Shown: piece after piece, positions 48,338 to 62,783 of the stretch
Position numbering within the stretch: position 1 is the stretch's first letter
How the letters are laid out: every line of letters starts with the position of its first letter
Source of the DNA: Endozoicomonas montiporae CL-33
GTDB lineage: Bacteria > Pseudomonadota > Gammaproteobacteria > Pseudomonadales > Endozoicomonadaceae
NCBI RefSeq assembly: GCF_001583435.1
Contig: NZ_CP013251.1
Coordinates: 4,911,215 to 4,975,214 of the forward strand
Direction of reading: 5' to 3'
Length of the DNA: 64,000 bases
Program-made: the position numbers and the translations under genes
Notes under the pieces: model-generated
Seen by the model: only the letters and a program-made list of their open reading frames with translations
Told to the model about the DNA's origin: nothing
Databases searched by the model: none

Positions 48338-48519
48338 AAGTCTCCCTGGTCTGTTTGCCAGTCATTAAAGACCCGGGCTGATAATACCATACCAGGAGGT
48401 TCCTCGTTGGTGCTGGAGCGCAAGTCCACCTCGCAGTGGAAAGCCCGATTCACTACAGCAACTTCCACCGTTGCTTAACAGCAACGGGCTTACGTGGCAG
48501 CGGCAGTTTGGGGAGGCTT
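48338..48519 (+). ncRNA. ssrS: 6S RNA
   Basis: About 182 bases, the usual 6S size. The 5' end AAGTCTCCC can pair with the 3' end GGGGAGGCTT, closing the long rod. The central region resembles E. coli 6S: GGGCTGATAATACCATACC against GAGCCGATATTTCATACC, and near the 3' end CAACGGGCTTACGTGGCAGCGGC against CAAGGGTTACAGCCTGCGGCGGC. It sits directly after zapA, as in many gammaproteobacteria. 6S RNA binds sigma-70 holoenzyme as an open-complex mimic and releases it by pRNA synthesis. The last 45 bases are also the left boundary of an integrated island, yet the gene is intact. Confidence 0.9.
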
Positions 48520-48526
48520 ACAATCA
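48475..48526 (+). repeat. attL: 52-bp direct repeat in the 3' end of ssrS
   Basis: The stretch from TTAACAGCAACGGGCTTACG to GGCTTACAATCA is identical, over all 52 bases, to 62732-62783. It covers the last 45 bases of ssrS plus seven bases. An integrase gene starts 255 bases away. It is the left attachment site, and integration leaves 6S RNA complete. Confidence 0.93.
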
Positions 48527-48780
48527 TTCAGTTCATGTCGTCTTATTCCCTCTCAGATTCTACAAAAACTCCCTAAAAACAAGGCTTAAATGCCAAACAC
48601 CCAAACTCATGCTCGATTTATACCCTCGTCTCATACTGAGTACTAAGGTACATTTAGTACTTGGCAGCGCAAATAAAAGTGCCCAAATGCATGCCCAACT
48701 TTTCCTCCCGTTACCCAGCAGCAACGGAGAAGCTGGCATATATTGACTGACCCGATAACGAAGAATAAGAAGTCACAACA
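48527..48780. other. attL-integrase spacer
   Basis: About 250 bases without a credible gene. AGTACTAA/TTAGTACT form an inverted repeat near 48640-48660, a candidate arm-type binding site for the integrase or a hairpin. The promoter of int should lie here. Confidence 0.5.
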
Positions 48781-50181
48781 ATGGCAAAGAAGCATTTGTC
48801 GGACGCCGACGTCAGAAACAAAAAGCCTGAAAGCAAGGAAACCACTCTGGTTGATGCCACAGGCGTGGTATGCCGGATTTTCCCTTCAGGCAGAAAGACC
48901 TTCTGCTGGCGATACGTCGATCAGCATCGCAACAAACAACAGTCCAGAATTGAGTACGGCGACTACCCTGACCGATCATTGGCTGATGCCCGCCGCATAC
49001 ATCTGTCCGCAAAGTCCGCCAGAAAGAATGGGTACGATATCAAAGACCCCGCTGTGCTGAACCGGATCATTAAGGAAGTTGTTAAAGACGCCGCCGACTT
49101 TGTCCCACTCCACAAGGAATACACGCTGTCGGACCTGGTGGCAGACTACTTCAAAGGACACATCGAAAAAAACAATATCGGCCCACGTCCTTACAACCGG
49201 ATAAAAAAACACGTCGAGCCGGTGCTGGGGCATCTTCCCGCAGACCGGATTCCCGCTGAAGAAATCAAACAGCTCATCACCCAACTGCGCGAGAGCAACC
49301 AGAAAGACCGAACCATTTTCGATACCATCCGCTTCAGCACCTCGATGTATCGCTGGGGCATTACCCAGTTCAAATGCAAGACCAATCCATTCCAACCTTA
49401 CGTACCAAAGCAGAAACGAAAAGTTCGCACGTCCTACTATCCGATGTACGAGCTAAGAACCCTGTTGATCAACCCCGATGGCTACCCCATCAAGAACGAC
49501 TTTTATCTTATCCAGAAAGCTCTGATCCTGTCGGGTACACGCCGAACACAAGTACTGGAAGCCGAGATTAACGAATTCAACTTCGACAACGGTAACTGGA
49601 CCATTCCCCCAGAACGAGTCAAGAACCAGAACATGCTCAAAGATGATGAGGAAAAAACGCCCTTTATCATCCCAATGTCCAGACAGCTGATGGCAACAAT
49701 ACGCACGGCTATTGAACAGTACGGCAATCACAAGCATGTATTTGGCAGCAAAAAAACTGAATTCACTGATCAACAATGGCAACGCATTCAAGAGGGTTCA
49801 TCCAGTGCCCGGTATTACAATAACGAGATAAAGACCTACCGCGAGCACTATGGCATTACCAACCGAACCAATCATGACCTGCGACGTACACTGGAAACCA
49901 ATCTCACCAACCTCGGCGTCAGCGAGTTCATTACCACCGCTATGACCGGGCACAGCCGCAAGGGCATGAGCAAGACCTACAATCAGGCCAAACAGATTCA
50001 TGTGATGAGAACCGCGTTTCAGATGTGGGCCGACTTCATTGACTTTATCTGCGATAAAGATGAAACCTATGCCGTCTACTTTGAAGAACAAAGACCCAGC
50101 CGTGAACTGAAAGACATTTATGCCACTTTCAAATTCAATGACCGGATCATTGATACGTTTACGATTTTTGAGGACGGGTAA
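48781..50181 (+). CDS. int: P4-type tyrosine recombinase (integrase)
   Basis: 466 residues. The N-terminal arm-binding domain (residues ~1-90, with GVVCRIFPSGRKTFCWRY) is followed by a core-binding domain (~115-215) and a catalytic domain. The catalytic set is visible: Arg in LSGTRRTQVLEAE (~258), HDLRRTLETNL (~362, His and Arg), GHSRKGMSKTY with the His box and nucleophile Tyr (~393-401). It performs insertion and excision at the ssrS attachment site, together with an AlpA-type factor encoded next. It is adjacent to attL, as expected. Confidence 0.93.
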   Translation: MAKKHLSDADVRNKKPESKETTLVDATGVVCRIFPSGRKTFCWRYVDQHRNKQQSRIEYGDYPDRSLADARRIHLSAKSARKNGYDIKDPAVLNRIIKEVVKDAADFVPLHKEYTLSDLVADYFKGHIEKNNIGPRPYNRIKKHVEPVLGHLPADRIPAEEIKQLITQLRESNQKDRTIFDTIRFSTSMYRWGITQFKCKTNPFQPYVPKQKRKVRTSYYPMYELRTLLINPDGYPIKNDFYLIQKALILSGTRRTQVLEAEINEFNFDNGNWTIPPERVKNQNMLKDDEEKTPFIIPMSRQLMATIRTAIEQYGNHKHVFGSKKTEFTDQQWQRIQEGSSSARYYNNEIKTYREHYGITNRTNHDLRRTLETNLTNLGVSEFITTAMTGHSRKGMSKTYNQAKQIHVMRTAFQMWADFIDFICDKDETYAVYFEEQRPSRELKDIYATFKFNDRIIDTFTIFEDG

Positions 50182-50228
50182 TGATGGGAGTTGAACAAGG
50201 TGAGAAAGGTAAAGGTTGACCACACTGG

Positions 50229-50414
50229 TCAACCCAACCCCGTCAGCATCGACTCAATAGCACGACTCACATCATCCCGCTTCCATACTCGCCTTTTTGA
50301 AGCAATGATGTACCCCTCCGGAAATTGTTTCTGCTTGATCAACCGATAAATGGTCGCTCTGGACAAGGTGGTCATTTTCAACACCTCATCAATGTTAATC
50401 AGTTCATAGTCCAT
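50229..50414 (-). CDS. AlpA-family transcriptional regulator/excisionase
   Basis: 61 residues: a MerR-like winged helix of the AlpA type, LINIDEVLKMTTLSRATIYR then LIKQKQFPEGYIIASKRRVW, ending with DVSRAIESML. In P4-like elements AlpA switches on integrase and helps excision. It is convergent with int, 47 bases from its end. Most likely a recombination directionality factor for this island. Confidence 0.88.
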   Translation of the reverse strand: MDYELINIDEVLKMTTLSRATIYRLIKQKQFPEGYIIASKRRVWKRDDVSRAIESMLTGLG

Positions 50415-50627
50415 TATGACGCTTCCTAAGCCTTAAATGGTCAAACACATACCTACCGATGGTAGATCTGAGAAGTAGCCTGAATTTCGGGTCAGTGATT
50501 ATCGAAAATGGCTGATTTACAGTACGCATTCCGGTCTTTATTTAGTTTATTTTTCAACCAATCCCAGAATTAAAGACCTGATTTCGTACTCACACTGACC
50601 CGTATTTCGGGCAAGCATTTTTATTAT

Positions 50628-51110
50628 TCAGTGATTACCAACACTCAATGGCACCTTTGCCTTGCGACTTTTATTTTCAGGTGGTTTATAGCGTGGCACT
50701 TCTTTCTTCCATAGGCCGGACGGCACTCTGGTTTCACCTACCTCCAGTTTGCCGCCACACTCATCAATAGCATAAAGCGTTACGGCATAGAGATTAGGCC
50801 AACCTCTTGTAAATGCATGCCCCAAACGAGTCAGCTCAATGAAACCATAATGAAGCAGCTCATCTCTGGCACGCTGCAAAGTGCCCTTGGATTTCCACCC
50901 TTGCTTCTCCATAATCGACCAGCTCGCGCAGAGGTCTCCGTTGTTGGTGATGCCTTTGCCTTTACCAAATCGAAATTGATCCATCATCTGCACCAACAAC
51001 TTAACGGCATTGCCACTTAACATCCTGAAGTTAGGACTGTTGATCAATTCATGTGGTAAACGGACAAATTTGCCACTGCTTCTCCTGCCTTTTACTTTAA
51101 GGCGATCCAT
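50628..51110 (-). CDS. Winged-helix replication-like protein
   Basis: 160 residues. FVRLPHELINSPNFRMLSGN and AVKLLVQMMDQFRFGKGKG, GITNNGDLCASWSIMEKQGW and KSKGTLQRARDELLHYGFIELTRLG form a winged helix similar to that of phage or plasmid replication proteins (RepA/DnaD-type N-terminal fold). Basic C-terminus (KSRKAKVPLSV). It lies in the regulatory stretch with the two AlpA genes. Together with an iteron-like array (52438-52481) it suggests the island may replicate briefly after excision; this is inference. Confidence 0.6.
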   Translation of the reverse strand: MDRLKVKGRRSSGKFVRLPHELINSPNFRMLSGNAVKLLVQMMDQFRFGKGKGITNNGDLCASWSIMEKQGWKSKGTLQRARDELLHYGFIELTRLGHAFTRGWPNLYAVTLYAIDECGGKLEVGETRVPSGLWKKEVPRYKPPENKSRKAKVPLSVGNH

Positions 51111-51122
51111 TGCCTCTCCCCC

Positions 51123-51329
51123 TTATTGATCCGATCCTGCAACCTGTTCTTCCATCCACTGATGCACAACGTCCTCCAACCAGACATTGATACGGGAAGC
51201 AGACGACAGTTTTGTTGGGGCTGGAAATTCCCCCCGTTTGATCATGCGCTCTATGGTGGAAGGGGACAGGCTGGTTATTTCAACAACCCGTCCTTTGCGG
51301 ATATAGCGGGGTGGCGTTTTAGTGGTCAT
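51123..51329 (-). CDS. Second AlpA-family regulator
   Basis: 68 residues: RYIRKGRVVEITSLSPSTIE then RMIKRGEFPAPTKLSSASRI, a standard AlpA winged helix, with NVWLEDVVHQWMEEQ at the end. It lies 12 bases upstream of the replication-like gene on the same strand, so the two are probably one unit. Two AlpA paralogues in one island may regulate different steps (excision and replication or cargo). Confidence 0.86.
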   Translation of the reverse strand: MTTKTPPRYIRKGRVVEITSLSPSTIERMIKRGEFPAPTKLSSASRINVWLEDVVHQWMEEQVAGSDQ

Positions 51330-51426
51330 TAATGATGACTCCTGCTGTTTTGTTACGTTGCAAGAATCATCGTATTCATGACCTACGATAATAAACAGGA
51401 AGATTTTTTAACGAAAAACATTCCGG

Positions 51427-52269
51427 TTACTTCTTATCCAAAAATTCATAGTTAAGCAGCGTTTTAATATATGCAGGATTCTTTGCCAGATTCTCTAATC
51501 GGTTTACGGTCTTACGGACATTATCACCAACGTCATCCCATGCCCGGTCGGAAAAGACCGTCTCACCGATCAACTCTAGGGGTATAGAAGTTCCTCGAAT
51601 CTCAGCCCATAAACGTAAATCCAGAACTGCCAAGATCCGATGCTGGTGAAACAACCGGATCTTCGACTCTGTCATCAGCTTGGTCGGTTCCGGTAGATTT
51701 AATTGATCCCGATAGAAATGAATGATGCTATCAAGGTCTGATTTTATCAGTGCGTTTGTAGCAGCAAAATCAACTCTCACATAGCCGACACTTTTATCCC
51801 TTCGCCGCTTCGGGCGATCATCTATGCGCTCAAACCAGACACCCATATCATGAAACATATCTTCTATATCAGCGTCATCTTCCAAATTGAAAAATATGTC
51901 TCCAAATGTGGCTGGGCTAATCACTCCCCTGCCATTATCAATCCCTGCAATGAGAGATTGCTCTTCACGATCAAATATTACCGGTATGCCCTCATACTCT
52001 GGTATGCCGTGGTTTGTAACAGGCTTCCCCGCATGAAGCGACGAGAAAAAATCATTTGATTGTTTTTGCGACTCACTTCCGACACTAAGCCTCCTGGAAT
52101 GAAATGGGCAGCTTTGCAACTCTTCAAATAACGAGCTTTGGCTAGAATACTGCTCCCTGATTCGATGGCGGTGCATAAACTCTATCCCCCATTCTCTGGG
52201 CTTCAGGTGTTCGGTACCTTTATATTTTTCCAAAGAAAACCATTCGGGAAGCTTTTTTATTTTTGACAT
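51427..52269 (-). CDS. DUF6387-like hypothetical protein
   Basis: 280 residues from the ATG at 52269 (MSKIKKLPEWFSLEKYKGTE); an upstream extension of 19 codons reads as a hydrophobic non-family stretch. KLPEWFSLEKY and an N-terminal Trp (REWGIEFMHRHRI) are typical of DUF6387, found in mobile elements and defence-related regions. The middle has YVRVDFAATNALIKSDLDSI and the C-terminal half is helical. AT-richer than the neighbouring hsd genes. It is divergent from hsdM and shares the 52270-52594 control region; a regulatory role is possible but unproven. Confidence 0.7.
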   Translation of the reverse strand: MSKIKKLPEWFSLEKYKGTEHLKPREWGIEFMHRHRIREQYSSQSSLFEELQSCPFHSRRLSVGSESQKQSNDFFSSLHAGKPVTNHGIPEYEGIPVIFDREEQSLIAGIDNGRGVISPATFGDIFFNLEDDADIEDMFHDMGVWFERIDDRPKRRRDKSVGYVRVDFAATNALIKSDLDSIIHFYRDQLNLPEPTKLMTESKIRLFHQHRILAVLDLRLWAEIRGTSIPLELIGETVFSDRAWDDVGDNVRKTVNRLENLAKNPAYIKTLLNYEFLDKK

Positions 52270-52378
52270 TACAACGCCCCATATAAACGACAATGGAAAT
52301 ATGCCCCACATCACCTTGAAGAACAACCAGCTCTAACGGTTTCAAAAAGGTTAACAAATCTGAAAAGTCACTTTTCCG

Positions 52379-52396
52379 AACGGTTAGCTAACCGTT
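52379..52396. promoter_or_regulatory. 18-bp perfect palindrome (candidate operator)
   Basis: AACGGTTAGCTAACCGTT is a perfect palindrome. It is flanked by a second inverted pair AAAGTCAC/GTGACTTT (52364-52371 and 52398-52405). It lies between the divergent DUF6387-like and hsdM genes and could bind a dimeric regulator. Confidence 0.6.
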
Positions 52397-52437
52397 AGTG
52401 ACTTTGTAGTAGAGAGCTTAAAACACCTTCCACGAAT

Positions 52438-52481
52438 TCATGGCGAACTCATAGCGAACAAATAGCGAACTCGTAGCGAAC
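52438..52481 (+). repeat. Iteron-like array, four 11-bp units
   Basis: TCATGGCGAAC, TCATAGCGAAC, AAATAGCGAAC and TCGTAGCGAAC are head to tail with an 11-base period, one DNA turn. The core TAGCGAAC is constant except for one base in the first unit. CGTTCGCAAGCCGTTC follows. It fits either a replication origin or a cooperative regulator site upstream of hsdM. Confidence 0.75.
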
Positions 52482-52594
52482 CGTTCGCAAGCCGTTCAAA
52501 CACCACCCCCTTTCCTGTAACCTAGCCCCCAACACCCACATTCAAAGCAGTCCGCACCACCAGCAGCCGGACGCAAGCATTACCGGTCACCAAC

Positions 52595-54982
52595 ATGCCC
52601 AACACCCAAACCAACCTTGCCGCCTTCATCTGGTCCGTAGCTGACCTCTTACGTGGCGATTTCAAACAATCCCAATACGGACGCATCATCCTGCCGTTCA
52701 CCCTCCTGCGCCGCCTCGAATGCGTTCTGGAGCCAACCAAAGACGCCGTCGTCGCCCAGCACGAAAAAGTAAAAGCCATGAACCTGCCGGAAGACGGCAT
52801 GGAAAAAATGCTGCTGCGGGCTACCCAATCATCAGATCGCCCCGGCGGTCTGTCGTTCTTCAACACCTCCCCCATGAACCTGTCGAAGATGGGTCAGGGC
52901 GACATCAAAGACAACCTGGAAAACTACGTCCAGTCCTTCTCCCGTGATGCCCGTGAAATCTTTGAACACTTCAGGTTCGATGAATTTGTCGGCACCCTGA
53001 ACGAAGCCAACCTGTTGTATAAGGTGGTTCAGAAGTTCACCAACATCGACCTGAGTCCCAAAGCGATCAGCAACCACGACATGGGTCTAGTATTTGAAGA
53101 ACTGATCCGCCGCTTTGCCGAATCCTCCAACGAAACCGCCGGTGAACACTTTACCCCACGGGATATAGTCGAACTCACCACCTCGCTGGTGTTTATGGAA
53201 GACGACGACGCCCTGAACAAAGAAGGCATTATCCGCACCATCTACGACCCCACCGCAGGGACAGGCGGCTTTCTGTCGTCCGGTATGGAATATGTGTACG
53301 AACACAACAAAGACGCTGTCATGCGTGCCTTTGGTCAGGAGCTTAACCCGGAATCCTACGCCATCTGTAAAGCCGATATGCTGATCAAGGGGCAAGATGT
53401 CAGCCGCATCAAACTGGGCAACACTCTGTCGAACGATCACCTGAGTGGCGACCAGTTTGACTACATGCTGTCTAATCCGCCGTTCGGGGTGGACTGGAAG
53501 AAGATTGAAGGCACGATCAAAGATGAGCACACCTTAAAAGGTTACGACGGTCGCTTTGGTCCCGGCCTGCCAAGAGTATCCGATGGTTCGCTGCTGTTCC
53601 TGATGCACCTGATCAGCAAGTTCCGGGACATCACCCCGGATAATCAGAACCCCAGCCGCATCGGCATTATCCTTAACGGTTCGCCGTTGTTTACCGGCAG
53701 TGCAGGCAGTGGTGAAAGCGAGATTCGCCGTTATATTCTCGAATCCGATCTGCTCGAAGCCATTGTCGCCCTGCCTACGGATATGTTCTACAACACCGGC
53801 ATCGCCACCTATGTGTGGGTGCTGACCAATAAGAAGTCCGACGAGCGCAAAGGCAAGGTGCAGTTGATTAACGGCGTGGATCTGTGTGGAAAAATGCGAA
53901 AGTCCCTTGGTTCCAAGCGCAACATCATGAGCGAAGCGGATATTAAAACCATTACCCGTTGCTTTGGTGGATTTGAGGCGGTTGAACAGCAAGCATTAGA
54001 CGATGTGCAGGATGCACAAGTGTCGCGGGAGGCAAGGATGCCGGGAGCGACCAAGCCTGCTGAACAGAAAAGTAACCGTGGTCGCCAGTCAGACTCCTCA
54101 AAAGTGAGGGCAACTAAAACCTTTTCCAGTAAAATCTTCGACAGCCATCAATTCGGCTACCGTCGTATTACCGTAGAACGCCCACTGCGCCTGTCAGCCC
54201 AGATCACGGACGAAGCCGTAGAAGGCCTACGCTATGCACCCAAACCGTTTAACGCTGTCATGCGCTGGATTCACAGCGAATACGGCGATGAGTGTCATAC
54301 AACGCTCACAGACAACGAAGAAGCCATCCGCACCAAGATCAAAAAAGACTTTAAAGAACTGAAAGAGAAGCAGATCAAAGAGGTACTGAACGACAAACTC
54401 TGGCTGTTCCAGCGGGGGCTGATGGAGAAAGCCCAAACCCTGCAAGATACTCTTTATGGTAACGAGGGCACAGAACTGTCCAACGACTTCAACCAGTTCG
54501 ACAAAGTCCTGAAAGCCGCCCTCAAAGCCGCTAACTTAAAGCTGGATGCCAAAGAGAAAAAGCAGTTTCTCGATGCCGTTACCTGCAAGAACCCCGAAGC
54601 CGAACCTGTCATCAAAAAGGTACTGAAGGAAGACGCACAACCACTGTACGGCGCATTTGAATACAAAGGCAAAGTCGTCGAATTCCAGACCGATGGCGAC
54701 CTGCGGGATAACGAGAATATTCCCCTTGATCCGTCCGTGACCACCCGTGAACTGATCGAAACCTACTTCAACCGCGAAGTGGCTCCCCATGTCCCCGATG
54801 CCTGGATCAATGCCGACAAGTGCGACGCCCAGGATGGCGAGATCGGTATTGTGGGTTACGAGATTCCCTTTAACCGACACTTCTATGTGTATCAGCCACC
54901 CCGTGCGCTGGAAGCCATTGATGCCGATCTGGATGCGGTCAGCGGGCGCATTATGAAGCTGTTGGCGGAGGTGCATTCGTGA
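52595..54982 (+). CDS. hsdM: Type I restriction-modification DNA methyltransferase subunit
   Basis: 795 residues. HsdM N-terminal helical domain ([20 protein letters not shown], ~8-27), then the methyltransferase with SAM-binding [13 protein letters not shown] (~217) and catalytic SNPPFGVDW (~292), the N6-adenine type. Residues ~480-795 form a long extension (beginning after [12 protein letters not shown]), rich in coiled coil and with a C-terminal helical domain, common in larger HsdM proteins. It methylates the host target sequence and forms the M2S core with HsdS. Its TGA shares one base with the hsdS ATG. Confidence 0.95.
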
Positions 54983-56370
54983 TGGAACTTACCAAAGCTT
55001 ACGATCACTACCGTTACAGCAATTATTATCGAACTGAACTCCCCGCACATTGGGTAGAGAAGCGATTAAGCTTCCTTGCCAAAGAAGAGAGAACCGCTTT
55101 CGTTGACGGTCCTTTTGGCTCGGATTTAAAAAGTAGCGACTATAAACCTTCTGGAGTCCCACTCATCCAGCTAAACAACATTCGAGATAGCAAACATCTT
55201 CTACGTAACATGAAGTTTGTCACGGAAGAAAAAAAGGAAGAGCTTTGCAGGCATGTAGCTCTTCCGGGGGATGTGGTTGTCGCTAAAATGGCTGAACCTG
55301 TCGCACGGGCTGCAATTGTAGCCAACGATTATCCTGAATATGTGATCGTTGCAGATTGTATAAAGATGACCCCGAATCTCAGATTGGTTGATCTGCGCTT
55401 CCTTGTTTGGGCTATAAATTGCGATGTCGTAAGGATAAACGCAGAATTAGTATCGACCGGCACAACCAGAATACGCATAAGTCTCGGTGAATTAAAAAAG
55501 TTAAAAATTCCTTTTCCTCCAAGTGATGAACAGAAGCTGATAGCCAACTTCCTCGACCACGAAACCGCTAAAATCGACATTCTGATCGAAGAGCAGCAAT
55601 CCCTGATCAGGCTGTTGAAAGAAAAACGACAGGCGGTGATCAGTCATGCCGTCACCAAGGGGCTGAACCCTGATGCACCGATAAAGGATTCCGGTGTGGA
55701 GTGGCTTGGGGAAGTGCCGAAGCATTGGGAGGTACAGCGGCTAAAAGACTTACTCGTTGAACCAATGAAAAATGGTTTGTTCAAGAAAAAAGATCAGTTT
55801 GGCTCTGGAAGTCTATTGGTTAATGTTAGCGACTTGTACGTTGACGAGCATTTTATCGAGCAGGACTCCTTGGATCGAGTACAAACAACACCAGAAGAGC
55901 GGGAAGTGTATAAAGTCGATAGCGGCGATATTTTCTTTGTCCGCTCGTCTTTAAAGCTCGAAGGAATTGGTCGATCTGCGTGCTTTTTGAGTGAGTCTGA
56001 AGACGTTGTTTTTGAATGTCATATCGTCAATGGAAAGCCTAAAAAGCAATCGGTTTCTCCAAAGTTTTTGACTCGCTATTTAAATTCTCAGCCGGTGTCA
56101 CAAGAATTTATTCGTAGGTCGAAAACGACAACAATGACAACCATTGATCAGGGTAGCCTGGCAACAATCAGTACAGTTCGACCGCCACTGGAAGAAGCGT
56201 ATGCCATAGATGCTTTTCTTGATCACAGATTAAACCATATGAATAGTGCAGTAACCGATGCAGAGCGATCAATAAAACTGCTCGAAGAACGCCGCACCGC
56301 CCTAATCTCCGCCGCCGTCACCGGCAAAATCGACGTGCGCGGATGGAAGAATCCCCAAAAACAACACTGA
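54982..56370 (+). CDS. hsdS: Type I restriction-modification specificity subunit
   Basis: 462 residues from the ATG at 54982 ([20 protein letters not shown]), overlapping the hsdM stop by one base. Two target-recognition domains are seen: TRD1 (~20-175) and TRD2 (~225-400). Each is followed by a long helical conserved region: SDEQKLIANFLDHETAKIDI with EQQSLIRLLKEKRQAVISHA (~180-220), and EEAYAIDAFLDHRLNHMNSA with ERSIKLLEERRTALISAAVT (~400-450). The two TRDs define a bipartite recognition site. No inverted repeat for phase-variable shuffling was noticed around it. Confidence 0.93.
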   Translation: MELTKAYDHYRYSNYYRTELPAHWVEKRLSFLAKEERTAFVDGPFGSDLKSSDYKPSGVPLIQLNNIRDSKHLLRNMKFVTEEKKEELCRHVALPGDVVVAKMAEPVARAAIVANDYPEYVIVADCIKMTPNLRLVDLRFLVWAINCDVVRINAELVSTGTTRIRISLGELKKLKIPFPPSDEQKLIANFLDHETAKIDILIEEQQSLIRLLKEKRQAVISHAVTKGLNPDAPIKDSGVEWLGEVPKHWEVQRLKDLLVEPMKNGLFKKKDQFGSGSLLVNVSDLYVDEHFIEQDSLDRVQTTPEEREVYKVDSGDIFFVRSSLKLEGIGRSACFLSESEDVVFECHIVNGKPKKQSVSPKFLTRYLNSQPVSQEFIRRSKTTTMTTIDQGSLATISTVRPPLEEAYAIDAFLDHRLNHMNSAVTDAERSIKLLEERRTALISAAVTGKIDVRGWKNPQKQH

Positions 56371-56387
56371 AGGAATAACAAATACAA

Positions 56388-56987
56388 ATGGAGAAACAAG
56401 CAGTTCTCGACCTGTACAGAGAGCAGTACAGCCTTGAGATTGGTCGCAAAGATGCCATTACATCGCAATGCCAGACTCGATTCGCCATTATTGTCACTGA
56501 AGTCAGTTTGCTGATTTATATGTTCAAAACGTTTGCACTGGAGGCAAATGGTTATGTTCTTGCAGGTTTTGTCGCTACTGGGGTGATTACTGTCATTTTG
56601 GTTTGCAAAGCAGGAGTTTTATTATCTTCGGCATATACGGGTAATGAATACAGCTACCTTCCCCTGGTCAGCGAGATTGATGCTTACCGTAAAGAACTGG
56701 AAAGCGTCGAGTCTGCTGGAAGTCAGTTCATAGACCACCTTCTGGAGGAATACAGCGCCTGCTCTGGAAGTAATGCAAAGCTTAACGACAAGAGATTGAG
56801 TTTGCTGAATCGGTCACTGAATTATATTCGCTACTCCGCAATAGCTTTTGCGCTGACTGGCGCTCTATTTATAGGGGCCGATCTGGACTCCTCTTCCCCA
56901 AGAAAGCCATTAGAAGTTGAATTTGATAGCTGCTCACTTTGCCTGAAGTCGAATACAAGTACAGAGGTTAAGGATGAACGACCATAA
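56388..56987 (+). CDS. Three-span membrane protein embedded in the hsd operon
   Basis: 199 residues with two adjacent membrane helices (~32-50 and ~56-80), a cytoplasmic or periplasmic helical region (~85-145), a third span (~147-165) and a polar tail with a CxxC (Cys182, Cys185). No family recognised. The paired spans followed by helices recall SLATT-type two-helix effectors, but this is shape only. It starts 17 bases after hsdS and overlaps the hsdR start by 14 bases, so it is part of the operon. The position between hsdS and hsdR is where PrrC, a tRNA anticodon nuclease, sits in the prr locus. Possible membrane effector or anchor of the R-M complex. Confidence 0.8.
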   Translation: MEKQAVLDLYREQYSLEIGRKDAITSQCQTRFAIIVTEVSLLIYMFKTFALEANGYVLAGFVATGVITVILVCKAGVLLSSAYTGNEYSYLPLVSEIDAYRKELESVESAGSQFIDHLLEEYSACSGSNAKLNDKRLSLLNRSLNYIRYSAIAFALTGALFIGADLDSSSPRKPLEVEFDSCSLCLKSNTSTEVKDERP

Positions 56988-59900
56988 CAATACTGACGAT
57001 AAGCAACCTTCAAAGTTTGCAAACAAGGAAACTCCGAAGAAACCCCAGCGCAGACATGTTATTGAGATGCAACAAGGCGGCGCACAAGAAGCCTTTTACA
57101 TGATGAAATCAGCTCCATCAATTGGTCACTCTCGCTTGAGCAAAGTGAATGAATCGGCCTTTCAGAATGATATGATCACCCGCCTACAGGATAAAGGCTG
57201 GCTGCTCGGCAGTGGCGACCAGTACGACCGGAAAACGGCGTTGTATACCAGCGATGTACTGGATTTTGTGAAGAACACCCAGCCGAAGGAATGGCAGAAA
57301 TTCTGCAAAAGTTTTCCGGTGGATTCGGAGCAGCATTTTATCAGCCATCTGGTGAACCAGCTAAAGAAAGCCGATGCCAATGCCATTGATAAGGAGCTAC
57401 GCAGTTTTGGCACCCTGGGCGTGTTGCGTCATGGGTTGAAGATTCGCAACGCCCGATTCTCCTTGTGCCAGTTTATGCCGGAACACAGTTTGAATCCGGA
57501 TACGCTGGCTCGTTACAAAGAAAACCGTTGTCGTGTGGTGCCAGAGCTGGTGTATTCACCTTATGCTACAGCAGAACATCTGGCAGAAACCGGCAAACAA
57601 GCAAAGAAATGGCGCATTGATCTGGTGTTGTTTGTGAACGGTCTGCCCGTGGCAACACTGGAGCTGAAATCGGAATTCAAACAGGCCACTGAAAACGCCA
57701 AGCGGCAATATCAAAAGACCCGCCTGCCCAAAGACCCGGAAACCGGCAAGCCGGAACCGCTGCTGACCTTTAAACGCGGTGCGCTGGTGCATTTTGCCGT
57801 GAGTCAGTACGAAGTGTATATGGCGACCAAACTGGCGGGCAGCGATACCTTCTTCCTGCCGTTTAACAAAGGCACGGCAGAAGGCGGTGCAGGGAATGAT
57901 GTTCCTGACGATCAAAACGAGTATGCAACAGAGTACCTGTGGAACGAGGTGCTGCTGCCCGATAACCTGCTGAACATTATCGGTCGGTTTGTGCATTTGC
58001 AGATCGAAGAAAAGGAAGACTGGGAAGGCCGCAAGTCGAAAAAGGAAACCCTGATCTTTCCCCGTTATCACCAGTGGGATGTCGTGACCAAGCTGATCGA
58101 CGCAGCAAAGATGGAAGGCACGGGCAACAAGTATCTGGTGCAGCACAGTGCCGGTTCCGGTAAATCCAACTCCATTGCCTGGACCGCCCATCAGCTTTCC
58201 ACCCTGTACGATGGCGAAGGCAACAAGCAGTTCCATTCGGTGATTGTGATTACCGACCGAACTGTGCTGGACGACCAGCTTCAGGACACCATCTACCAGT
58301 TTGAACACGCCGACGGTGTGGTGGGGCGCATCAACAATAAGGAAGGCGACGGCTCCAAGTCGGAGAAGCTGGCATCGGCCCTTGAGAGTGCTCAGCCGAT
58401 TATCATCGTCACCATTCAAACCTTCCCTTATGTGCTGGCGGCTATTGAGAACAGCACCAGTCTGAAAGAACGCCGTTACGCCGTGATTGCCGACGAAGCC
58501 CATTCATCACAAACCGGCTCTACCGCCCGTAAGCTGAAAGAAGTGTTGATGGTGGACTCGGATGACGTTGACGAAGATAAGCCGCTGTCGTCTGAAGATG
58601 TGCTGGATGCGGCTCTTTCTCGAACGAGTGCCGCTCGAAGAGGCAGCAGCAACCTGAACTACTATGCGTTCACGGCAACACCCAAAGAGAAGACCGTGCA
58701 ATTGTTTGGTCGTCTGCCCAACCCGAATGAACCCGCTTCTAAAAAGAATAAACCTGAAGCCTTCCATATCTATTCCATGCGTCAGGCCATTGAGGAAGGG
58801 TTTATTCTCGATGTGCTGAAAAACTACACCAACTACAAAGTGGCGTATCAACTGGCACAGAAGATCGAAGCCGCTGACGAAGAGGTAGACAGCAAGAAAG
58901 CCAAAGTAAAACTGAACCGCTGGGTGCGGCTCCACGAGCACAATATTTCCCAGAAAGTCAGAGTCATCGTCGAACACTTTAAAGAACACGTGATGGGGCT
59001 ACTGGGTGGTCAGGCTAAGGCGATGGTGGTCACCAGTTCCCGTAAGGAAGCGGTGCGTTACAAGTTGGCGTTTGATAAATATCTCAGCGAACACACTTCT
59101 CATAAAAAGGAGAGTTCTATCGCTGTGATGATTGCCTTCTCTGGCGAAGTAGAGTTCCACAAAAATGATCCGGACAGTCTCGCACTGCTAGACCAGACGT
59201 TTACCGAGAAGGGCATGAACCCGAACCTGAAAGGTCGGGATATGCGCAAAGCCTTCGACACCGACGACTATCAGATCATGCTGGTCGCCAACAAATTCCA
59301 GACCGGCTTTGACCAGCCCAAACTCTGCGCTATGTATGTGGACAAACCGTTGGGCGGTGTAGAATGTGTGCAAACCCTGTCCCGCCTGAACCGACAGTAC
59401 CCCGGCAAGGCGGAGTGCGGCACCTTTGTGCTGGACTTCGTGAATGAGCCGGAAGACATTCTGGAGTCGTTCCAGCCGTACTACCAGACCGCAGAACTGG
59501 CGGATGTATCCGACCCCGACAAGGTGTTTGACCTGTACGAAAAACTCCGTGCCAGCGGTATTTTCACCTGGAACGAAGTGGAGCGGTTCTGCGAAGCCTT
59601 TCTTGCCAAAAGCAAAAGCAATGCGGCAGTGAGCAATATCGTTAAGCCTGCGGTCAATCGCTGGCAAACACGCTACAGTTCCGCCATTGCCGCCTATGTG
59701 CAGGCAAAGGAAATGTTCGAGCGCACCAAGAAAACGAAGGATGCAGTGCTGATCGCCAATGCCGAGAACAGCTTCAAAGAATGCAAGCAGGAAAAAGACC
59801 GGCTGGAAATCTTCAAGAAGGATTTAGGCACGTTTACCCGCTTCTACGAGTTCATGTCACAGATAGTGGACTACGACGACCGGGAGCTGGAAAAACTCAG

Positions 59901-60405
59901 CCTGTACACCCGTTATCTGCGCCCGCTGCTACGAGAGAAAGTCATCGAAGAAGACGACATTGATCTGGATAACGTGGTGATGAGCCATTATCGGTTGTCG
60001 AAGATTCGTCAGCAGGACATTGAACTGAAGGAAGACGCTGAAGGGTATGAACTGGAACCCGGCGACGGTGGCGGTACAGCCAAACCGAAGGACAAGAAGG
60101 AAGAGTTCCTGTCGCAGATTGTCGCGCGGTTGAATGAACTGTTTATCACCGACGAGTTGAGCGATGGCGACCTGATCAACTACGCCTATACGGTGCGAGA
60201 CAAGCTGACCGAGAACGACACTGTAATGAAGCAGATCGAAAACAACACGGCGGAACAGGCTCTGCTGGGCGACTTCCCGCAGGCGATTGACGATGCGGTC
60301 ATGGACAGCAATGAAGCGCATCAGGAAATGATGATGCAGTACCTCTCTAACCCGGAAGTGGCAAGAGGGTTTGCTCGGGTTGTGTTTGATATGTTGAAAG
60401 GGTGA
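56974..60405 (+). CDS. hsdR: Type I restriction-modification endonuclease/translocase subunit
   Basis: 1143 residues. Order: nuclease domain (~100-270; LVLFVNGLPVATLELKSEFK holds the E-x-K of the PD-(D/E)xK site), Walker A HSAGSGKSNS (~391), helicase motif Ia/II region VIVITDRTVLDDQL, DEAH box IADEAHSSQTGS (~508), motif III FTATP, and RecA-like domain 2 with KFQTGFDQPKLCAMYVDKPL (~772) and QTLSRLNRQYPGK (~794). A long helical C-terminal domain (~880-1143) binds the M2S core. It cleaves unmethylated DNA after translocation. It overlaps the preceding membrane-protein gene by 14 bases. Confidence 0.95.
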   Translation: MNDHNNTDDKQPSKFANKETPKKPQRRHVIEMQQGGAQEAFYMMKSAPSIGHSRLSKVNESAFQNDMITRLQDKGWLLGSGDQYDRKTALYTSDVLDFVKNTQPKEWQKFCKSFPVDSEQHFISHLVNQLKKADANAIDKELRSFGTLGVLRHGLKIRNARFSLCQFMPEHSLNPDTLARYKENRCRVVPELVYSPYATAEHLAETGKQAKKWRIDLVLFVNGLPVATLELKSEFKQATENAKRQYQKTRLPKDPETGKPEPLLTFKRGALVHFAVSQYEVYMATKLAGSDTFFLPFNKGTAEGGAGNDVPDDQNEYATEYLWNEVLLPDNLLNIIGRFVHLQIEEKEDWEGRKSKKETLIFPRYHQWDVVTKLIDAAKMEGTGNKYLVQHSAGSGKSNSIAWTAHQLSTLYDGEGNKQFHSVIVITDRTVLDDQLQDTIYQFEHADGVVGRINNKEGDGSKSEKLASALESAQPIIIVTIQTFPYVLAAIENSTSLKERRYAVIADEAHSSQTGSTARKLKEVLMVDSDDVDEDKPLSSEDVLDAALSRTSAARRGSSNLNYYAFTATPKEKTVQLFGRLPNPNEPASKKNKPEAFHIYSMRQAIEEGFILDVLKNYTNYKVAYQLAQKIEAADEEVDSKKAKVKLNRWVRLHEHNISQKVRVIVEHFKEHVMGLLGGQAKAMVVTSSRKEAVRYKLAFDKYLSEHTSHKKESSIAVMIAFSGEVEFHKNDPDSLALLDQTFTEKGMNPNLKGRDMRKAFDTDDYQIMLVANKFQTGFDQPKLCAMYVDKPLGGVECVQTLSRLNRQYPGKAECGTFVLDFVNEPEDILESFQPYYQTAELADVSDPDKVFDLYEKLRASGIFTWNEVERFCEAFLAKSKSNAAVSNIVKPAVNRWQTRYSSAIAAYVQAKEMFERTKKTKDAVLIANAENSFKECKQEKDRLEIFKKDLGTFTRFYEFMSQIVDYDDRELEKLSLYTRYLRPLLREKVIEEDDIDLDNVVMSHYRLSKIRQQDIELKEDAEGYELEPGDGGGTAKPKDKKEEFLSQIVARLNELFITDELSDGDLINYAYTVRDKLTENDTVMKQIENNTAEQALLGDFPQAIDDAVMDSNEAHQEMMMQYLSNPEVARGFARVVFDMLKG

Positions 60406-60469
60406 TGAGCAGAGATTGCTCCGTGCAGAGTTCATTTTGCCCTCTGTACGGAGCACTTTACTCGGGGAA

Positions 60470-61147
60470 TCAATATCCCTTAGCGGAGAATCTGGCTACG
60501 CATCCAGTTACCCTGATATCAACAGATGCGAAGCGAGCATTCAGCTCATTATGAAGCGTATCCAGATCATCCTGAGTATTATTAAAAATGCCCTTGCGAT
60601 TGTATATTCCCATCAAGCAGCTGGCAGCTAAATTTCGCTTCACACCCCCTTGTAGAATCGTAGAGCCGAATACTGTGCCATTCGTGTTTAACAGCGGCAG
60701 AATATGGTCAAAAACGATTGCCTTGGTTTGCAAATTTCCTGGCAAACAATGAAGTACATAATTCAGGCTGATTGAGTCAAATGTTTCTGAATGTTTATCG
60801 AATGGTTTTAACAGGTCATGAACTTGTGTTTTTGGGCGGTAACGTCGTAAACGTTCACTGGCATAGCCGAGAGCGCCCTGATTCAGATCAACAAGCTTTA
60901 AGTGTGGAGTCTTGGAGGGGAAGTGGCAGTGATCAGGAAAGTATCCAGTACCCACTCCCAATTCCAAATGGTTGCTGGAAACATGCTGGTTAAACCAGTC
61001 CAGCAGGATAGGGGTCGTGCATTTCCAGATATATCGATTGGAAACCCCGAGAACGGCAATATCGTATATGTTCAGGACTCTTTTGCTGTAGACAGCTTGC
61101 CCTTTATAAATCTGATCTTCTGTTATCTTTGAATTATGTGAAGTCAT
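60470..61147 (-). CDS. Class I SAM-dependent methyltransferase
   Basis: 225 residues with the Rossmann motif HLELGVGTGYFPDHC (~62-75), KLVDLNQGALGYASERL (acidic end of strand 2), and VLHCLPGN (motif near strand 4). The motifs fit small-molecule or quinone-type methyltransferases rather than DNA methyltransferases: no NPPY-like motif is present. It is convergent with hsdR, with 64 bases between the stops. Its role in the island is unknown: it might modify a metabolite, protein or RNA. Confidence 0.85.
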   Translation of the reverse strand: MTSHNSKITEDQIYKGQAVYSKRVLNIYDIAVLGVSNRYIWKCTTPILLDWFNQHVSSNHLELGVGTGYFPDHCHFPSKTPHLKLVDLNQGALGYASERLRRYRPKTQVHDLLKPFDKHSETFDSISLNYVLHCLPGNLQTKAIVFDHILPLLNTNGTVFGSTILQGGVKRNLAASCLMGIYNRKGIFNNTQDDLDTLHNELNARFASVDIRVTGCVARFSAKGY

Positions 61148-61245
61148 ATTATTTCGGTTGTATCAACAATTTTCTGATTGCCATTTGATTCAAACACAGG
61201 TAACTGGTTAAAACCATTTTGAGGATGCAAAAAAGAGTGTACTTG

Positions 61246-61320
61246 TTGGACACATCACACCATCTCGCTAAGTCATTGACCTGCCGTGTCCAATAAACTC
61301 ATTTCCGACCAACTGGACAG
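61246..61320. promoter_or_regulatory. Candidate res-like site upstream of the serine recombinase
   Basis: TTGGACAC (61246-61253) and its inverse GTGTCCAA (61286-61293) are followed by a further ACTGGACAG near 61310. Several GGACA/TGTCC half-sites in the 130 bases before a resolvase gene suggest recombinase binding subsites, but spacing does not match a known res site exactly. Confidence 0.4.
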
Positions 61321-61378
61321 CGTGTAAAGCAGGGTCTAGTTTTCCCTTTACTCAGAATAAGAAGTAGAGGAACCCGCC

Positions 61379-61939
61379 ATGAACGGTCAGAACGTCGGAT
61401 ACATCCGGGTCAGCAGTGTTGACCAAAATACCGCCCGCCAACTCGATGGCATTGAGCTGGATGCCACCTTTGAAGATCATTGCAGCGGCAAAGACACTAA
61501 CCGGCCTCAATTAAAAGCCTGTCTGCGCCACTTACGAAAAGGCGACCATTTGCATGTCCATTCCATAGATCGCCTTGCACGCAGCCTTAAAGACCTTCAG
61601 ACGCTGGTTGAAGAACTAACCGACCAAGGTATCAGCATTCAGTTCCACAAAGAAAACCTGACGTTCTCCGGTGACAGTAACCCAATGCATAAGCTGATGT
61701 TTCAGATGATGGGAGCCTTTGCCGAATTCGAGCGCAGCATGATTCGTGAACGTCAGCGAGAAGGTATCGCCGCTGCCAGAAAGCAGGGGAAGCAGATCGG
61801 CGCAAAGCCGAAACTTACAGACGTTCAACTGGCAGAAATAGTGGAACGCCTTGATTCCGGTGAACAGAAAAAGGCCCTGGCATTAGAGTACGGAGTCAGT
61901 CGGCAGACATTGCATAACATGCTGTCAGCGGCTCCTTGA
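61379..61939 (+). CDS. Serine recombinase (resolvase/invertase family)
   Basis: 186 residues. The catalytic domain begins GYIRVSSVDQNTARQL with the nucleophile Ser (residue ~12-13), LHVHSIDRLARSLKDL (motif with Asp and Arg, ~60-75) and GAFAEFERSMIRERQREGIA (E helix, ~117-136). The C-terminal helix-turn-helix is KALALEYGVSRQTLHNML. This is a Hin/Gin/Tn3-resolvase size protein. It may resolve dimers of the island or invert a segment; no obvious invertible pair was found. It is the last gene before the noncoding region and attR. Confidence 0.92.
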   Translation: MNGQNVGYIRVSSVDQNTARQLDGIELDATFEDHCSGKDTNRPQLKACLRHLRKGDHLHVHSIDRLARSLKDLQTLVEELTDQGISIQFHKENLTFSGDSNPMHKLMFQMMGAFAEFERSMIRERQREGIAAARKQGKQIGAKPKLTDVQLAEIVERLDSGEQKKALALEYGVSRQTLHNMLSAAP

Positions 61940-61980
61940 GCAACATGAACTAAATACAAGGAACAAGGTCATATCTATTG

Positions 61981-62049
61981 AAGCTGGTGCCAGTATAGGC
62001 CGTGGTAGGCTGCCAAGCAGTCGCCCGGAGATGCTGCTGGCACTAGCTT
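61981..62049 (+). repeat. Structured repeat copy A (13-bp stem, 43-nt loop)
   Basis: AAGCTGGTGCCAG (61981-61993) pairs with CTGGCACTAGCTT (62037-62049), one G-T wobble. The 43-base loop shares CGTGGTAGG and CGCCCGGA with copy B at the same positions. Confidence 0.75.
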
Positions 62050-62344
62050 TTTGTTAAATCAGTACTACTTTGAATACGAAGCTTACAGTCTGGTGATATG
62101 CCTTGGAATTCCACTGAGGACAGTTGATCCAGCTGACGGTTTCCGCACACCTCTAGGCTGACGCTGACATCCCCGAAACTGGATCGGGTGATATAGCGTG
62201 TAGTCGAGGCGCACAGCCTTCGAGCTGGTGAACCACTTTGAGGAATTGAACCTCAATCAGTCGAACCAGACGAAGGCTTTCTTAATTTGCAAAGTACTAA
62301 TCTGCACGAGTGGAACTACCAGCATGAAATGCAGTCTTAGTATA

Positions 62345-62417
62345 AGCAGGCAGTATCAGTGTAGAACGTGGCAGGTTGCTTTGCTTCCGCCCGGACATGC
62401 CTCTGGTACTGCTTGCT
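62345..62417 (+). repeat. Structured repeat copy B (15-bp stem, 43-nt loop)
   Basis: AGCAGGCAGTATCAG (62345-62359) pairs with CTGGTACTGCTTGCT (62403-62417), two wobbles. The stem differs from copy A in sequence yet stays paired, and the loop is also exactly 43 bases with matching CGTGGCAGG and CGCCCGGA words. Confidence 0.75.
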
Positions 62418-62500
62418 CTTCCCGACTCACTGCTTTGAATATCCGAACACGAAGCTGATCTATCGACAGGTATGTATGCTTTTTCTGAACCCAAATTGCC

Positions 62501-62620
62501 CCTTTTTTATAGTGGTTCAGTTATTCGTTGAATAACGCTCACTAAACAACGAAACAAGACTCCGTGAAATAGTGGAAGTAAGTTTTTTCCAAGCCATTAT
62601 TTTCCCTTTTTTATAGTGGT
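62501..62620 (+). repeat. 16-bp direct repeat pair
   Basis: CCTTTTTTATAGTGGT occurs at 62501-62516 and again at 62605-62620, 104 bases apart. Both are in AT-rich sequence just inside attR and may be integrase arm-type sites. Confidence 0.65.
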
Positions 62621-62731
62621 GTAATTACTCTCAATCAAGAAGAAACATTCTGCCCAAATTACTGCCCGTAAGATTTAACAAAGTCCATTATTCTCATAAT
62701 TTATAATATGTTACTGATGTTATGCAGTTCA

Positions 62732-62783
62732 TTAACAGCAACGGGCTTACGTGGCAGCGGCAGTTTGGGGAGGCTTACAATCA
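62732..62783 (+). repeat. attR: 52-bp direct repeat, remnant of the ssrS 3' end
   Basis: Identical to 48475-48526. Its last three bases (TCA) are also the stop codon, read in reverse, of the partial gene that follows, so that gene came to its present end through the attachment site. Confidence 0.93.

Follow-up and report, generated by a model that had tools for sequence, protein, structure and literature searches.

A three-span membrane protein in the hsdS–hsdR slot of a mobile type I restriction-modification operon: a candidate portable defence accessory

The gene between hsdS and hsdR in the window (the whole stretch of 64,000 nucleotides analysed here) is best explained as encoding a membrane-embedded protein of an undescribed family that serves as a portable accessory in defence and is carried as cargo in the hsdS–hsdR slot of a mobile type I restriction-modification (R-M) operon. 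We refer to its product, the 199-aa protein of the open reading frame at 56388-56987, as X. The probability of this reading is put at about 0.55 and is the sum of two sub-cases: an independent passenger, which takes the larger share, and a PrrC-like guard, which takes the smaller. X would probably be an abortive-infection or membrane-perturbing effector, and its control by the R-M enzyme in the manner of PrrC is possible; we infer both steps, the one from a defence context to a membrane-perturbing effector and the one to control by R-M.

The gene, its operon and its island

X is encoded on the same strand as hsdS and hsdR, with operon-like spacing. Pfam and PADLOC profiles recognise a complete type I R-M system around it, in which hsdM and hsdS overlap by 4 bases, and the operon sits on a 14.26-kb island flanked by 57-nt direct repeats with a spacing of 14257 bases. 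The features are listed below.

48340-48518, strand not given: 6S RNA gene (RF00013)
48470..48526, forward strand: left attachment repeat, 57 nt, at the 3' end of the 6S RNA (ssrS) gene
48781..50181, forward strand: integrase-like gene, 466 aa, named by eye, beside the left repeat
52595..54982, forward strand: hsdM, methyltransferase subunit, 795 aa (PADLOC MTase_I, E 7.7e-279; Pfam N6_Mtase)
54979..56370, forward strand: hsdS, specificity subunit, 463 aa (PADLOC Specificity_I, E 2.2e-109; Pfam Methylase_S)
56388..56987, forward strand: X, predicted three-span membrane protein, 199 aa (ATG at 56388, TAA at 56985-56987)
56974..56987, forward strand: X/hsdR overlap of 14 bases, given an hsdR start at 56974 (ATG preceded by AGAGG)
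56974..60405, forward strand: hsdR, 1143 aa from the first ATG (Pfam SWI2_SNF2, HSDR_N, T1R_D3-like; PADLOC)
62727..62783, forward strand: right attachment repeat, 96% identity to the left repeat

The island that carries the X operon is a mobile, integrative one, inserted at the 3' end of ssrS (span 48340-62783). The third-position GC of X (0.440) and hsdS (0.446) is below that of hsdM (0.647) and hsdR (0.635), as would suit X having come later, together with a swapped hsdS or next to one. Because this is the pattern of swapped cargo, it also argues for the defence-accessory reading.

Other elements share the island. A DUF6387 protein (51427-52326, reverse strand) is encoded divergently from hsdM, its gene adjoined by two short AlpA-like regulators (by eye), while the right end, after hsdR, carries a SAM-methyltransferase-like protein (60470-61147, reverse strand) and a resolvase-like recombinase (61379-61939, forward strand), both also named by eye. 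Two 53-nt repeats, 74% identical and 104 bases apart, lie at 62474-62630, just inside the right attachment repeat.

The initial annotation had X linked to hsdR by a 14-base overlap. This stands if hsdR starts at 56974, where an AGAGG within the X frame lies at ribosome-binding distance upstream of the ATG, and falls if hsdR starts some 50 residues later. Read from its first ATG, the window HsdR has ∼50 N-terminal residues more than the relatives with a readable N-terminus. Since these relatives begin ∼50 residues further in, the start may likewise be further in, which would leave no overlap with X. The extension itself (56974-57150) may be an insertion scar, a contact for X, or untranslated.

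Profile scans of X return no Pfam family and no PADLOC family at E ≤ 1, and no NCBIfam model matched. Judged by its conservation, X is a real gene and no chance ORF, since 21 further database proteins share its motifs, with 29 invariant columns over the 22 sequences. Hydrophobic stretches are found at residues 28-46, 49-67 and 144-162 with a lenient cut-off of 1.3, which their modest peaks of 1.33-1.44 pass narrowly; the three-span call is made also because the family and the structural model agree with it. All three stretches occur in 35/35 aligned family members at the same cut-off, and the AlphaFold2 model (24-row alignment; mean pLDDT 85.9, pTM 0.71) places helices at 3-48, 55-84, 94-104 and 110-163, with residues 173-199 at low confidence. 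Fold searches gave nothing significant. The loop charges (K+R: N-terminus 4, first loop 1, large loop 7, tail 5) weakly favour a topology in which the N-terminus would be inside and the C-terminus outside. Thus the description of a three-span membrane protein between hsdS and hsdR, with which the initial annotation had begun, is confirmed for both the predicted spans and the position.

Relatives of X and their surroundings

A direct search recovered four relatives at 44-46% identity, apart from the protein itself. A profile built from five rows extends the set to 22 proteins of 193-201 aa, X included, the 21 further ones at E ≤ 3.4e-44; where the source names an organism, it is Vibrio, Shewanella or Photobacterium (Vibrio sp. 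L3-7, Vibrio astriarenae and Shewanella sp. 30m-9 are examples). The 22 rows carry the motif D-[LF]-D-[SAT]-S-S-x-R-[KRN] after the last span. Ten more distant rows, of 245-298 aa, have a longer tail, which is proline-rich in 8 of the 10. Residues E17, Q29, Y44, Y88, N129, N133 and R136 are invariant over 35 rows, and the spacing of N129, N133 and R136 puts them on one helix face. A 39-row tree groups the window X, the member at locus L028 and P0002-P0022 into a short clade of 23 rows with support 89/90, which is below the starred level of the tree tool. Within the clade the window X has no settled place, and the window X, L028 and others are long branches, so that their joining may be false. 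Both the support and the long branches count against the defence-accessory reading.

Among genomes, family members occur in 2 of 94 relatives (the window's own genome and G035), in 1 of 369 of the class (again the own genome), in 2 of 394 in the order of G231, in 11 of 329 in the family f244, including both from that order, and in 1 of 152 in the family f230. The family f244 appears to be Vibrionaceae, since the coordinates of the G940 locus match Photobacterium sp. DA100, and f230 appears to be Shewanellaceae, since OmcA/MtrC-type cytochromes score over the cut-off there. In its own 5.43-Mb single-contig genome, the sole match of X is X itself. Searches of viral contigs found no relative except L007, and those of phage records found none; tblastn against plasmids gave two records with X relatives, and the genome contig search gave one locus, L005.

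Surroundings are visible at 15 distinct loci (the window, L003, L004, L005, L007, L028-L036 and L039), with L007 the same element as L002/L037, L020 identical in coordinates to L004, and L024 nearly so to L003. The gene lies inside an R-M operon at two of the 15 (window and L028), with no R-M operon around it at the other 13. Four of the 15 members are beside other profile-recognised defence genes, namely Lamassu LmuA/LmuC/LmuB (L039), Septu PtuA/PtuB (L030), PD-Lambda-3 B (L004) and, one gene away, a PDC-M68B/LmuB-like DUF2326 protein (L007); four is a lower bound, since neighbours at the other nine loci were judged mostly by eye. These adjoining systems favour the defence-accessory reading, whereas the nine loci at which no defence neighbour was recognised speak against it. 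The remaining settings are varied. At L029 and L031 the gene stands alone between attC-like repeats, as in integron-type cassettes, and at L034 it is accompanied by one 160-aa ORF between 83-nt repeats; repeats of these types were looked for at L032 and are absent. L033 holds a fragment of a member only, L003 is on a plasmid, and genes of filamentous-phage type (Zot-type ATPase, by eye) lie close to L004, L007 and L035.

R-M is no fixed partner of the family, because its members sit in cassettes, on a plasmid, in prophage-like cargo and beside Lamassu, Septu and PD-Lambda-3. Homologues broadly outside R-M, with an unrelated role, had been named in advance as evidence against the initial annotation; 13 of the 15 loci are indeed outside, yet 4 of those 13 adjoin other defence genes.

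The second R-M-embedded member, at L028, comes from genome G487, which appears to be a member of the Vibrionaceae. The gene order is hsdR, X (189 aa), a 213-aa protein, hsdM and hsdS, all on one strand, with 4-base overlaps at hsdR–X and at X–213-aa gene. The earlier idea that an X-type gene is placed in an R-M operon thereby gains a second homologue, embedded in another type I operon. This R-M system is of another subfamily than that of the window, as evidenced by the best PADLOC models, PDLC03047 (hsdR) and PDLC03021 (hsdM) at L028 and PDLC03040 and PDLC03029, respectively, in the window. Both short-clade members with visible surroundings (2/2, of 23 rows) are therefore R-M-embedded in different subfamilies, which argues for the defence-accessory reading; no further short-clade R-M operon was found in the viral contigs, plasmids, phage records and genome sets searched.

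The 213-aa protein at L028 (6636-7277, reverse strand) duplicates the C-terminal domain of HsdR as a free-standing protein (EcoEI_R_C, E 6.6e-9). It is 58% identical to the HsdR of its own operon over 188 aa, and the DNA is 82.6% identical over 305 bases. Over its last third it hardly differs from the parent HsdR, as by gene conversion. In HsdR, this domain probably contacts the methylase core. The pairing of X with the duplicate, a single case, is the best hint that X and the complex are physically linked, and by setting a copy of this domain next to the gene for the membrane protein the L028 operon names a likely contact surface. No counterpart of the duplicate was seen among the ORFs of the window operon, and a search of viral contigs found no relative of it.

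The hsdS–hsdR junction and the competing explanations

We surveyed the junction at 26 loci with relatives of the window HsdR (L040-L065), comprising the best 10 of 766 plasmid records, all at >51% identity, and all 16 viral loci. No gene stands in the junction at 14 of them, and the other 12 are filled (L043, L044, L046, L048, L051, L052, L053, L055, L060, L061, L064 and L065). In this count L054 is scored as empty with its hsdM, hsdS and hsdR in pieces, hsdS ends at the contig edge in L049 and L050, L043 and L044 are near duplicates, and L055 is filled by an open frame seen there. Eight of the 12 filled loci were profile-scanned (all except L044, L051, L053 and L055), and 7/8 match nuclease, NADase or defence families. 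The slots hold PDC-S14 with GIY-YIG (L043), Mrr_cat (L046), PtuA and PtuB of Septu (L065), GmrSD/Orf5 (L060), SIR2 with HerA (L064), CAP12/Pycsar TIR (L052) and PDDEXK_4/PDC-S26 (L061, in which the scanned ORF is a profile fragment); at L048 the sole match, to a CBASS 2TM effector, is weak (E 3.1e-4), and L051 and L053 carry PtuA/PtuB-like genes by eye. The hsdM–hsdS junction also carries genes, in L047, L052 and L063. Directly after hsdR, a Vibrio campbellii plasmid (L056, 9235-10924) has a DUF4433 and macro-domain pair that is DarT/DarG-like by eye. At another surveyed locus an AAA ATPase and McrC follow hsdR.

The position of X, which the initial annotation compared with that of PrrC, is thus a real defence-cargo slot, in keeping with PMC12255303. 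The filled slots and the nature of their inserts favour the defence-accessory reading, and the empty ones, from which it follows that X is dispensable for R-M, count against it. Further points against it are that X has no effector-family match, that the PycTM/2TM matches of its relatives are weak, and that the fold searches were null.

As a defence accessory, X would form with R-M two successive layers, in which cutting comes first and membrane arrest second. The cytosolic bundle predicted from helix 1 and helix 4 would hold E17, Q29, N129, N133 and R136, the majority of the polar residues that are invariant, and likely senses infection or assembles, and the three spans would be the likely output, acting by perturbation of the inner membrane. 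The two R-M-embedded members of the short clade may have been captured into these operons from a portable effector family.

The first sub-case of the defence-accessory reading holds that X works by itself as a membrane protein for defence or superinfection exclusion and rides in the operon with no functional link to R-M. Longer relatives alone between attC-like repeats or on a plasmid, and others in the filamentous-prophage neighbourhoods named by eye, point this way. The short clade, however, has no long tail, and the tight placement of its two visible members in R-M operons hints at adaptation; we consider the passenger a serious possibility that falls short of even odds.

In the second sub-case, the type I complex would keep X inactive until phage inhibition or bypass frees it to damage the membrane. 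The tight spacing or overlap, the two R-M subfamilies and the L028 HsdR duplicate speak for control by R-M, and the many relatives that live without R-M speak against it. Precedent exists in PrrC, which is type I-embedded and silenced by the enzyme (PMC3874165 and PMC2610378). A reading overlap of X and hsdR in the window, if hsdR starts at 56974, and the two 4-base overlaps at L028 are consistent with such control, and the duplicate could be a decoy or a docking point for X on the methylase core. Against it, members in cassettes or beside other systems have no adjoining R-M partner, the R-M-embedded cases are two only, and no counterpart of the duplicate was seen in the window operon. We regard a guard role as rather unlikely. 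A fuller version is more doubtful still: X would be the membrane output of a PrrC-type sentinel guarding restriction, opening the inner membrane instead of cutting tRNA. It would dock on the methylase core, using a dedicated HsdR C-terminal paralogue in the L028 lineage, and several defence systems would have recruited its stand-alone cousins as membrane effectors of a general kind.

Outside the defence-accessory reading, X could be an antirestriction, immunity or transfer-related island protein with no part in phage defence. The integrase-like gene and att repeats of the island and the occurrence of the family on mobile elements would suit this, but X lies inside the hsd operon, away from the mobility genes, and the family recurs beside several defence systems, so we consider it highly improbable. 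The least probable is a pure anchor that positions the restriction complex at the membrane or the DNA entry site, an unlikely role even though X is a membrane protein within an R-M operon and the L028 duplicate could be a tether, given the 14 empty slots, the nuclease, NADase or defence genes in 7/8 scanned ones and the family members without R-M; a gene that is alone in its cassette also fits it poorly. The initial annotation had proposed either an effector or an anchor; the effector in a defence slot gains from the slot survey and the second R-M embedding, while its tie to R-M is weakened by the 13 of 15 loci outside.

Comparison with known systems

In the prr locus, the PrrC gene lies exactly between hsdS and hsdR. 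X resembles it in being an additional gene inside a type I hsd operon, as PrrC is in EcoprrI, where it is sequestered by the enzyme (PMC3874165 and PMC2610378). The two differ in kind: PrrC combines ABC-ATPase motifs with an anticodon-nuclease triad (PMC2610378), and X is a 199-aa three-span membrane protein with neither. X as a PrrC/RloC anticodon nuclease is ruled out by its size, its spans and the empty Pfam scan at E ≤ 1. DarTG2 occupies the same hsdS–hsdR slot in enteropathogenic E. coli, together with RptR (PMC12255303), but is a toxin-antitoxin pair acting on DNA, in contrast to a single membrane protein. By eye, no RptR-like gene was noticed beside the window hsdM.

PycTM, CBASS 2TM and SLATT proteins are small helical membrane proteins in defence loci. 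A few X relatives match them weakly in PADLOC, whereas the window X matches none and the family has three spans throughout; no cyclase was noticed among the window ORFs around X. Six PADLOC models are weakly matched by family members, and all six are membrane effectors (PycTM, CBASS 2TM, RT-associated SLATT), which favours the defence-accessory reading. PycTM PDLC02365 is matched by 2/35 members, with the best E of 1e-4 in a relative, and the other five models by one member each (best 0.0048-0.086). A Pfam scan of the same 35 members gave weak and scattered matches to 25 families (best 0.0031), and neither SLATT nor PycTM is named among them. Kinship with PycTM/2TM/SLATT is hinted at by PADLOC, but the Pfam scan and a small profile comparison do not bear it out, and the matches could reflect membrane composition. 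In that comparison, hhalign against a 3-sequence alignment (two DUF4231 matches and one by-eye pick) gave 1% probability. Membership of X itself in PycTM/SLATT is rejected on its empty Pfam and PADLOC scans at E ≤ 1, and membership in DUF4231 (PF14015) is disfavoured: that label is on the relative P0024 alone (UniRef), for which the Pfam scan gives no DUF4231 match at E ≤ 1.

An extra gene in the hsdS–hsdR slot is already published, and X is new as its occupant. No report of a membrane protein in this slot was among the matches listed, in literature on extra or membrane hsd-operon genes that included few subscription papers. The X family is undescribed in the libraries searched, apart from PHROG 36961 (unknown function), which residues 8-179 of X match at E 1.2e-8. 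The HsdR-duplicate arrangement at L028 was not met in these searches, which had other aims. Finally, PrrC and PARIS are guards that sense R-M inhibition, according to a 2025 review (PMC12707154). If X were a guard, its membrane output would be a new kind beside these, and the operon would offer a small, testable model of a type I enzyme restraining a harmful partner.
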